This document shows, one piece after another, positions 1 through 1,901 of a stretch of 64,000 bases of DNA (positions are counted from its first letter, which is position 1; every line of letters starts with the position of its first letter). The notes below the pieces were generated by a model that was not told the DNA's origin, ran no database searches, and was given only the letters and a program-made list of their open reading frames with translations. A program made the translations under genes and the position numbers. This DNA is from Prolixibacteraceae bacterium. Lineage in GTDB: Bacteria > Bacteroidota > Bacteroidia > Bacteroidales > Prolixibacteraceae. The stretch lies in NCBI GenBank assembly GCA_019459525.1, contig JAIBEY010000077.1:1-64000 (forward strand). The letters are read 5' to 3'.

Positions 1-535
1 TTATTTGTGTTGTTTACTTGCAAATTTTTAATTGGTACAGCATGATTTGCTCCATGTATTCAATTTACGCATGTCCTCGAAATGTCGTGACCGTACGGAG
101 GCGATCTGGATTAGCAACACTGCGGTTGCCGTAGATGAAGCATGGTCACGATACAACTTGACCAATAAACCACTACCCCCGCCACCTGTTTGAAGCAAAG
201 CTTTATATCTAATTTGTGTGGTTTCCTTGCAAATTTTTAATGGTGAGAGCATGTTTGGCGTCAGGGATTCAATTTAAGCATGGTCACGACATGTCGTGAC
301 CGTACGGAGGCGATCTGGATTAGCAACGCTGCGGTTGCCGTAGATGAAGTATGGTCACGATACATCGTGACCAACAAGCCACTAACCCATCCACCAGCTT
401 GAAGCAAAGCTTTATGTCTAATTTGTATGGTTTCCTTGCAAATTTTTCATGGTGAGAACATGTTTGGTGCTAGGGATTCAATTAAGCATGGTCACGACAT
501 GTCGTGACCGTAGGGATTGTGATCATGAAAGCATA
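1..535. repeat. Left REP-like palindrome array next to the transposase gene
   Basis: Direct repeats of about 208 bp run in from the window edge. Each unit holds two palindromes 71 bp apart. Type A is GGTCACGACATGTCGTGACC, a perfect 20-bp palindrome, at 282-301 and 490-509, with a degenerate copy at 73-92. Type B is GGTCACGATACATCGTGACC, with 9-bp arms and a 2-nt centre, at 353-372, with a degenerate copy at 144-163. The stretches between palindromes are also conserved, for example CCGTACGGAGGCGATCTGGA at 91 and 300. The B expected near 561 is eroded. Short reading frames here are repeat-encoded and are not genes. The array resembles the REP/BIME clusters that Y1 transposases act on. Confidence 0.85.
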
Positions 536-592
536 TTGCGGCAGATGAATATATCGGATAATGTTTAACTTTAAAGTTGAATTTTTGAATGT

Positions 593-1237
593 ATGGATTT
601 TCATAACCGAAAAAATATAAGACAAGTCAATCACGATTACAGTAAATCGGCAAGCTATTTTATTACAATAAATATTAAGCTGGGTCAGTGCTTGTTTGGA
701 AAAGCTATCTCTCCAACTGAAATTCAACTCACCGAACTTGGTAAAACAGCACAAAAATTCTGGATTGAAATTCCTGAACATTTTAGTCATGTGCACCTGG
801 ATGAGTTTATCATTATGCCCAATCATCTGCATGGAATTATTCATGTTAATGATATGCAGGAACACAATAAGTTACAGCCATTCCCTTCTTTTATAGATAT
901 CGATGTAGGGTCACGATACATCGTGACCGATGAACTTATATTTACCGATTCCGCCACTGAGAATGCGATTGGATCACGAAACTCTGCTACCGATGAACCA
1001 ACCCGAGTCAATCAATTTGGACCTTTACCTAAGGGCTCTTTAGCTGTAATTATCGGTCAATATAAATCTTCAGTCAGTCGCTGGGCAAATCTAAATAAAT
1101 ATGGAGGTTTGTTTTCATGGCACTCCCGTTTCTATGATAGGATTATTAATGATCAAAAATCGCTGATAGCAGCACAAACCTATATTCGACAAAATCCAGA
1201 GAAATGGTGGAAAAAATATCGGGATCAGGAATGGTGA
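593..1237 (+). CDS. REP-associated tyrosine transposase (RAYT, Y1/HUH family)
   Basis: This 214-residue protein belongs to the IS200-like Y1 superfamily, single-strand DNA endonucleases that cut and join at hairpins. The HUH motif is in IMPNHLHGII (His78 and His80). The likely catalytic tyrosine is Tyr197 in AQTYIRQNPEKW, and the family motif SWHSRFYDRII lies at about 176-186. The gene sits between two arrays of palindromic repeats, which is the usual RAYT setting, and no IS ends or second ORF are seen, so it looks like a domesticated single-copy enzyme. Residues 106-114 (GSRYIVTDE) are encoded by a type B palindrome, and 127-135 (GSRNSATDE) look like a decayed in-frame copy. The start follows a short degenerate spacer after the type A palindrome at 490-509. 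The family is clear; activity is not known. Confidence 0.85.
   Translation: MDFHNRKNIRQVNHDYSKSASYFITINIKLGQCLFGKAISPTEIQLTELGKTAQKFWIEIPEHFSHVHLDEFIIMPNHLHGIIHVNDMQEHNKLQPFPSFIDIDVGSRYIVTDELIFTDSATENAIGSRNSATDEPTRVNQFGPLPKGSLAVIIGQYKSSVSRWANLNKYGGLFSWHSRFYDRIINDQKSLIAAQTYIRQNPEKWWKKYRDQEW
909..928 (+). repeat. Type B palindrome inside the transposase coding sequence
   Basis: GGTCACGATACATCGTGACC occurs here in frame, identical to the intergenic copies at 353-372 and 1534-1553. It lies between the HUH region and the catalytic-Tyr region of the protein, in a linker. A decayed version follows at about 970-999 and preserves the reading frame. Confidence 0.9.
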
Positions 1238-1254
1238 ACAAGAACTAATAGCAC

Positions 1255-1690
1255 GATCACGACATGTCGTGACCGTACGGAGGTGATCGGAATCCGGAAC
1301 ACTGCGGTTGCCGTAGATGAAGTATGGTCACGATCCATCGTGACCACAACCCCCCAACCCCGCCACCTGTTTGAAGCAAAGCTTTATATTCAAATTTGTA
1401 TGGTTTTCTTGCAAATTTTTCGTGATGAGAACATGTTTGGTGCCAGGGATTCAATTAAGCATGGTCACGACATGTCGTAACCTTACGGAGGCCGTCTGAA
1501 TCCGGAACATTGCGGTTGCCGGGGATGAAGTATGGTCACGATACATCGTGACCAACAAACTACCAACCCCGCCACCTGTTTGAAGCAAAGTTTTATATCT
1601 AATTTGTATGGTTTTTTTGTAAATTTTTAATGGTGAGAATATGTTTGATATCAGGGATTCAATTAAGTACGGTCACGACATGTCGTGACC
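1255..1690. repeat. Right REP-like palindrome array after the transposase gene
   Basis: The array resumes 17 bp after the transposase stop with the same spacing as on the left. Type A copies are at 1255-1274 (first GG is GA), 1463-1482 (one mismatch) and 1671-1690 (perfect). Type B copies are at 1326-1345 (one change in the centre) and 1534-1553. A-to-B spacing is 71 bp and B-to-A spacing is 137 bp throughout, in the same orientation as the left array. The array ends sharply after the last type A palindrome. Confidence 0.85.
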
Positions 1691-1901
1691 GTACATGACC
1701 CCCTAACCCCGCCTGATTTTAATTTGTGCAACTGCCTGTACCTGTTAGTTTTCACCAACTTGTGTAACCGGAAATCTATGTTTTGCACTTTTTCAATAAC
1801 ACGCGTTATCGTTTTTTTTCGTTTCCTTTGCGGAGGTAAACAGATTAAATACAGATTCGATTTCCTTATTTCGTGAGGTTTTCGGGATTAAAAATTATAA
1901 A
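1691..1901. other. Intergenic leader, no gene seen
   Basis: This stretch between the repeat array and the hybrid kinase gene has no supported gene. A 63-codon frame across it starts inside the palindrome and has no recognisable content. I found no exact TAnnTTTG box close to the next start. Confidence 0.5.

Follow-up and report, generated by a model that had tools for sequence, protein, structure and literature searches.

The window analysed here covers 64 kb at the start of contig C4, from a genome of 5.54 Mb in 116 contigs. At its very start, within positions 1–1694, an open reading frame (593–1237) that encodes a RAYT protein is flanked on each side by alternating hairpins of two kinds (A and B). 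The features of the locus are listed below, each REP with its foot.

1..489, plus strand: left part of the array, in units of 208–209 bp, starting at the contig end and resuming on contig C73 (32335–32689)
73..92, minus strand: REP A, eroded, three mismatches, foot GTAC
144..163, plus strand: REP B, two mismatches, foot GCAT
282..301, minus strand: REP A, perfect, foot GTAC
353..372, plus strand: REP B, perfect arms, foot GTAT
490..509, minus strand: REP A, perfect, the last ahead of the RAYT gene, foot CTAC
593..1237, plus strand: RAYT (TnpA_REP) gene, 214 aa, identified by NCBIfam, profile and fold
909..928, plus strand: B-type REP inside the gene, in frame, encoding GSRYIVT, foot GTAG
965..999, plus strand: eroded REP-like copy in the reading frame, about 60 bp after the first and 66% identical to it
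1255..1694, plus strand: right part of the array, two full units and a terminal A, from TRF and unit comparison
1255..1274, minus strand: REP A, one mismatch, starting 17 bp past the RAYT stop codon, foot GTAC
1326..1345, plus strand: REP B, perfect arms, loop TCCA, foot GTAT
1463..1482, minus strand: REP A, one mismatch, foot GTAA
1534..1553, plus strand: REP B, perfect arms, foot GTAT
1671..1690, minus strand: REP A, the last of the array, with a double foot (GTAC on both strands)
1698..1713, plus strand: remnant of the post-B sequence, directly behind the last A, matching repeat family D4 at 94%

The A-to-B distance is 71 bp in all four cases in the window and in six out of six units when contig C73 is included; the B-to-A distances in the window are 138, 137, 137 and 137 bp, and TRF gives periods of 209 (3–516) and 208 (1250–1694). 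The A-B-A-B-A alternation around a Y1 gene noted in the preliminary description is real, with spacings of 71 bp and 137–138 bp. Where that description saw two palindromes, we find one palindrome with different loops: hairpin A is GGTCACGA-CATG-TCGTGACC and hairpin B is GGTCACGA-TACA-TCGTGACC, with common arms and a 4-nt loop that is CATG in A and TACA or TCCA in B. Nor does a division into perfect A and eroded B copies hold, as five of eight A copies are perfect and the arms are perfect in five of seven B copies (C73 and the in-gene copy counted). The hairpins form inverted REP pairs at a fixed spacing, alternating in clusters, as REPINs and BIMEs do. The remnant behind the last A fits a last unit that lost its A-B centre.

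A genome-wide search with the pattern GGTCACGANNNNTCGTGACC, allowing up to two mismatches, found 19 sites (11 of them perfect), versus none for the reversed pattern used as control; about 0.001 perfect sites are expected under uniform composition. Nine of the perfect sites lie in the C4/C73 array, one is inside the gene and one is on contig C113, where it has a diverged partner at 58 bp within a stretch that reads as intergenic. A related palindrome, GGTCAGGACATGTCCTGACC, and a variant of it occur as single copies elsewhere in the genome (G000:C31:17530, C89:50418 and C112:6859; loci L027–L029), with GTAA- or GTAG-like feet; this is apparently another REP family. Folded as single-stranded DNA, each single hairpin reaches −7.5 kcal/mol, and the A-B stretch 274–380 folds better than 200 out of 200 shuffles on either strand. 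No RNA element of Rfam matches positions 1–2000 at E values up to 0.1.

The RAYT carries an HUH motif (N77-H78-L79-H80) and a tyrosine motif (Y197-IRQNP), in which Y197 is assigned as the probable catalytic residue by homology; the presumed guide-reading region is W176-H177...D182-R183..N186. The protein matches NCBIfam NF047646 with E=2e-8 at 34 bits, below the curated cut-off of 80, and matches no Pfam family at 0.001, Y1_Tnp included; among 26 aligned members of the family, NF047646 is matched by all 26 and Y1_Tnp by 11. A profile of the 26 relatives has a single PDB match, E. coli TnpA_REP (4er8, E=2e-6). The AlphaFold2 model (mean pLDDT 77.9, with 116 of 214 residues at 90 or above) has as its top Foldseek matches IS608 (2a6m) and 4er8 (E=1.4e-5), so that the predicted structure combines an HUH and single-tyrosine core with the RAYT fold. 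Distant matches only were found among plasmid records (two out of 72,556 at E≤1e-5, 25–29% identity) and phage records (one out of 50,697 at E≤1e-5, 28% identity), and plasmid and phage origins were both dropped.

Two close relatives of this RAYT were found, one in the same genus (G014, 71% identity) and one in another genus (G072, 61%). Other RAYTs reach at most 42% over most of the protein, with higher values for partial matches (52% over residues 2–90 in G250, and 57% over 35 residues). These figures come from a family search, with matches in 82 of 140 genomes (the best 29 new loci, the window and a gene on contig C6 make up 31 loci), and from an order search of 393 genomes at E 1e-24, which gave nothing above 42% over most of the protein. 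Within the clade of three, pN/pS is 0.21–0.29 (0.21 and 0.27 against the two closest), with synonymous sites saturated, and the intact gene looks constrained. It has no second copy in its genome. The gene on C6 (G000:C6:65643-66116, L023) is a second RAYT-like gene with 37% identity and an internal GTAGAGACGC... palindrome; it lacks the Y motif at the usual place and is possibly decayed.

The in-frame REP copy at 909–928 had been missed in the earlier description. It codes within a loop (residues 93–132) that is predicted to be disordered (pLDDT below 50), and the eroded copy at 965–999 is possibly what remains of the other half of an in-gene pair. As single-stranded DNA the stretch 895–1010 folds no better than shuffles (20 out of 200 were as good). 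Internal inverted repeats (arms of at least 8, loop of at most 8) are found in 26 of 27 RAYT genes of the family, the sole exception being G014, versus a mean of 3.1 after codon shuffling; the 27 loci leave out L034 (stop inside) and the truncated L049, L056 and L059. The 8 nt after the foot agree between in-gene and flanking REPs of the same locus at 0.98 and between loci at 0.64 (12 loci with feet inside and outside; 0 of 5000 permutations). Since internal REPs have already been published for RAYT subclass 2.4, the in-gene REP is a confirmation. An in-gene REP that matches the flanking REPs can serve as a marker of REPs inserted, or brought in by conversion, within coding sequence.

The array continues beyond the contig break. 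The end of contig C73 holds A-B-A-B in the same register as the C4 array, with two more units, the second of them cut off. The array starts on C73 upstream of a rhodanese-thioredoxin gene and ends on C4 before a response-regulator/kinase gene. Close homologues of both genes are present in three genomes of the genus; in two of them (G006 and G004) they are on different contigs, and only in G008 are they side by side, as divergent neighbours about 365 bp apart. The neighbouring array-flanking genes of G008 indicate that C73 adjoins C4. The intergenic site of G008 contains no REP-like site with up to three mismatches, and no RAYT match is found on that contig: G008 has the orthologous site without the array, which is compatible with gain here as well as with loss in G008. 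A RAYT is found near the same rhodanese-thioredoxin gene in G014 (L030:2555-3957) and here (L024:2490-3690), on opposite sides, by chance or through a local move.

Its position between two divergent genes would suit an array that acts mainly as a cis regulator or terminator and is kept for that role. There are three terminator-like sites in 480–1920 versus 0.9 in shuffles, one of them formed by an A copy and its tail (minus strand, 1278–1251), and the available part of PMC3733652 puts forward the hypothesis that REPs act in termination and mRNA stability. We consider this explanation unlikely, because G008 has the same intergenic place without the array, G014 and G072 have the RAYT and pairs at other places, and promoter-like sites are as frequent as in shuffles (5 versus 5.0).

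The six array units are 83–90% identical. As they differ by 10–17%, fresh amplification or conversion is unlikely, and the ongoing gene conversion proposed earlier does not agree with whole units that differ this much. Mean identity between units is 88% for the A-to-B spacers and 84% for the B-to-A spacers. In all six units, 9 of 40 REP columns and 53 of 170 spacer columns are variable (p=0.34); leaving out the decayed unit at 73 gives 4 of 40 and 49 of 170 (p=0.014). Higher conservation of REPs than of spacers depends on excluding that unit, and ongoing conversion was dropped. A derivation of the 208-bp unit by deletion from A-RAYT-A was dropped as well: the leader after the A at 490 resembles the A-to-B spacer weakly, its local score being reached by 22 of 2000 shuffles and, in a second run, by 7 of 500 (one of eight comparisons).

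Relatives share the A-B pair. G014 lacks an array and has a single A-B pair, spaced by 68 bp, upstream of its RAYT gene. In G072 an array flanks the RAYT gene on both sides, with a different second hairpin, a pair spacing of 69–70 bp, a B-to-A distance of 83 and a repeat of about 153 bp (versus a B-to-A distance of 137–138 bp here); its RAYT gene contains an internal pair 70 bp apart, the second hairpin imperfect. The G072 genome has 27 perfect REP sites. At four of six unlinked G072 loci examined we found pairs at 69–70 bp (five pairs), and at the other two no partner at that distance. The 208-bp unit, on the other hand, is found in the window genome on C4 and the adjoining C73 end only, and among the best five candidates per genome a 211-bp query unit gave pieces of 22–38 bases in 4 of the 139 other family genomes. 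What relatives have in common is thus the A-B pair, and the tandem unit is confined to this locus, where the array seems to have been amplified.

It is very improbable that the 208-bp unit itself transposes as an enzyme-driven amplification unit, as was first proposed. In its favour are the spacers conserved along the array (88% and 84%) and the presence of array units on either side of the gene; against it, no whole unit is present elsewhere in the genome or, among the best five candidates per genome, in 139 family genomes, G072 disperses A-B pairs or single REPs, and the B-to-A distance is 137–138 bp here and 83 in G072. What survives of the proposal is apparent local amplification and a RAYT within its own array, the piece that recurs in relatives being the A-B pair of about 91 bp. 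The many unlinked units that would have supported the proposal are not found in this genome, which has one unlinked pair (C113); dispersed pairs are found in G072.

Tandem REP arrays of other kinds were seen in the family. G113 has an array of 199–221-bp units (L091:2442-4627, G113:C1:2975441 onward), in which every unit contains a single REP, GGTCACGATGTATCGTGACC or something closely similar, with foot GTAG (11 copies); the two RAYT matches of G113 are not near it. At L095:1005-1967 (G113) and L096:352-2254 (G112), REPs are mostly 61–63 bp apart, some 125–126, in groups about 691 bp apart with small lipoprotein-like ORFs of 118–133 aa (our own reading), as if REP pairs bounded a duplicated gene.

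A passive satellite is another explanation: the 208-bp unit would have grown through slippage or unequal recombination alone, with the RAYT as a bystander and the REPs idle. Beyond pieces of 22–38 bases, the unit is confined to one locus in 1 of 140 genomes (best five candidates per genome), its copies carry scattered point changes, and the G113 array, with no RAYT match nearby, indicates that such arrays occur without the gene. Yet the gene is intact and seems to be under constraint (pN/pS 0.21–0.29, synonymous sites saturated), a RAYT array with nearly the same pair spacing and another B-to-A distance exists in another genus (G072), and REPs vary less than spacers once the decayed unit is set aside (p=0.014; p=0.34 for all six). 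We regard the satellite as possible but doubtful.

We consider it very likely that the locus is a REPtron, i.e. a RAYT (a Y1/HUH single-strand endonuclease) with its own REP family, in tail-to-tail A-B pairs (REPINs) that stand in tandem around the gene. The plan of the array is that of an ordinary REPtron with a tandem REPIN array. Cognate REPs flank the gene and occur elsewhere, although here as one other pair (C113); that the REPs have hardly left the locus in the window genome counts against a REPtron. Each pair would be laid out as hairpin, foot, about 43 nt, foot and hairpin, with a linker of 117 bp between tandem pairs. The RAYT would nick the foot/hairpin strand of REPs in single-stranded DNA, such as arises in replication, and nicking would copy or move the A-B pair. 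Pairs together with their linkers may have multiplied in tandem at a later stage, by repair started at a RAYT nick or by replication slippage between repeats. The tetranucleotide readout of the clade would have shifted (H177 and N186 versus Q95 and R104 of E. coli) and would tolerate feet other than GTAG. A and B may thereby have guides that differ, for which the published guide rule predicts cleavage at unlike dinucleotides.

In the available text of PMC8266576, Q95, residue 100 and R104 of E. coli TnpA_REP are among the contacts with GTAG, of which no change is tolerated, and a change of GTAG to GTAC, an engineered foot, shifted cleavage to GA and GT in Marinomonas. In the alignment with 4er8, E. 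coli Q95, H101 and R104 correspond to H177, R183 and N186 here; residue 186 is T in G072 and S in G014. The feet of the window genome are GTAC in six of eight A copies and GTAT in five of six flanking B copies, and GTAG is found in its own array in the in-gene copy only. The G072 array has GTAC in eight of eight A' and GTAG in five of five B' hairpins, and the G014 pair has GTAG with GTAA. At the dispersed G072 loci, 14 hairpins could be read, with GTAC, GTAT or GTAA and no GTAG; three of five pairs combine GTAC with GTAA. Our literature search, which covered its sources in part, found no report of natural GTAC or GTAT feet.

The W motif could be read in 48 of 50 loci (30 family loci, without L034, and 20 of 21 order loci, without L181, which has a stop inside; L049 and L056 were left out): 41 are WQ..R, four WH and three other. 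Feet were counted on both strands for palindrome arms of at least 8, a double-foot palindrome counting twice, by a rule fixed after the families had been seen. At WQ..R loci, 81 of 90 feet have G as their fourth base, and G prevails in 29 of the 32 such loci that have feet; at WH loci it is 6 of 22 feet, with G prevailing in none of four loci, and at loci with other motifs 8 of 11 feet. By locus, WQ..R and WH differ with a Fisher p of 0.0006, which overstates the difference because there are only two independent WH lineages, the three-member clade and G057. Three of 32 WQ..R loci have feet that are not mainly GTAG, so other feet occur with WQ..R too. The WH protein of G057 (L033) is a second RAYT of this kind, separate from the clade, with two readable feet, GTAC and GTAA. 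With the G057 RAYT as query, eight loci were found at E 1e-45, all WQ..R and one of them the already known L169; the fourth foot base is G in 16 of their 20 feet, which were kept out of the pooled counts. In a tree of 29 loci (without L034 and L049) the three-member clade has full support on a stem of 1.9 changes per column, and its attachment is unsure.

It is conceivable, though we hold it only tentatively, that the REP foot changed together with the residues that read the guide (Q95 to H, H101 to R, R104 to N, T or S), giving a REPIN with two different guides (GTAC in one hairpin and GTAT, GTAG or GTAA in the other) and hence two unlike ends. By the guide rule, as known from engineered substrates, two different guides would mean that the hairpins are cut at different dinucleotides, which would make left and right ends distinct. 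A mechanistic link between residues and foot is an inference from sequence comparison. In the available text of PMC8266576 the C-terminal tail of the E. coli enzyme also contacts the final two bases of GTAG, and enzymes of group 3 accept changes in GTAG while keeping Q95 and R104 relatively conserved, so H177 and N186 need not set base 4. A search by eye for cleavage dinucleotides (GT beside A, AT beside B) gave no consistent site. If the proposal is true, the A-B pair has unlike ends, as an IS200/IS605 element does, whereas an ordinary REPIN has two equal ends.

REPs are widespread bacterial repeats, and much of this locus has precedents. The array had been set apart from REP/BIME clusters and thought possibly new to the phylum; neither view agrees with the literature. 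The accessible part of PMC3733652 describes BIME/REPIN clusters of tail-to-tail heterodimers reiterated in tandem with flanking DNA, and that of Quentin et al. 2018 (PMC6006769) reports for Bacteroidetes a RAYT subclass 2.4 whose genes have REPs around them and, in frame, within them. The array shares with BIMEs and REPINs the opposed REPs with tails inside, the fixed spacing and the tandem repetition with flanking DNA (PMC3733652, as far as available), but its tag is GTAC or GTAT, not GTAG, and differs between partners.

Subclass 2.4 (group 4 of Bertels), as far as its available description goes, is alike in its Bacteroidota host, the variable beta3-alphaC insertion, the flanking and in-frame REPs and a double foot on some of them. 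In the model, the insertion lies between E78-85 and H150-167, with loop 93–132 and the REP at 909–928. The motifs differ, being NHLH, WH and YIRQNP here versus NH[IFV]H, WQ and YIxNNP in the part of PMC6006769 available, as does the foot (often GTAC, GTAT or GTAA here, GT[AG]G on one or both sides there), and a long stem (1.9 changes per column) joins the clade to the family RAYTs. As the 2.4 motifs are absent, we file the protein as a RAYT that is 2.4-like. It does not fit subclass 2.6 (RAYT group 5), which has a 21-aa alphaC-beta4 insertion and YIH[QN]NP; here 13 residues are modelled between H150-167 and E181-185, with YIRQNP. Nor does it fit subclass 2.7 ([ND]HVH, WQ, YI[LR][NQ]NP and no beta3-alphaC insertion): YIRQNP agrees, whereas the other two motifs (NHLH and WH) deviate and the protein does have that insertion.

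With the E. coli TnpA_REP REPtron (4er8) the locus shares the fold, the HUH/Y1 motifs and REP pairs around one gene; in the available account (PMC8266576) GTAG is strict and the REP has a bulge there, whereas the arms here are perfect. In the literature surveyed, REP recognition in vitro covers few REPtrons, none from Bacteroidota. What may be new is the clade, with H and N, T or S at Q95 and R104 and with feet that are mostly non-GTAG and unequal within a pair; its members are natural variants, in the tag and in residues aligned with tag contacts, for testing the guide rule. Compared with IS200/IS605 elements (IS608, ISDra2), we see here no sign of an insertion sequence whose left and right ends move with the gene; the Y1 HUH fold is shared. 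IS608 has different guide tetranucleotides at its two ends, and the difference between the A and B feet parallels these unlike end guides.
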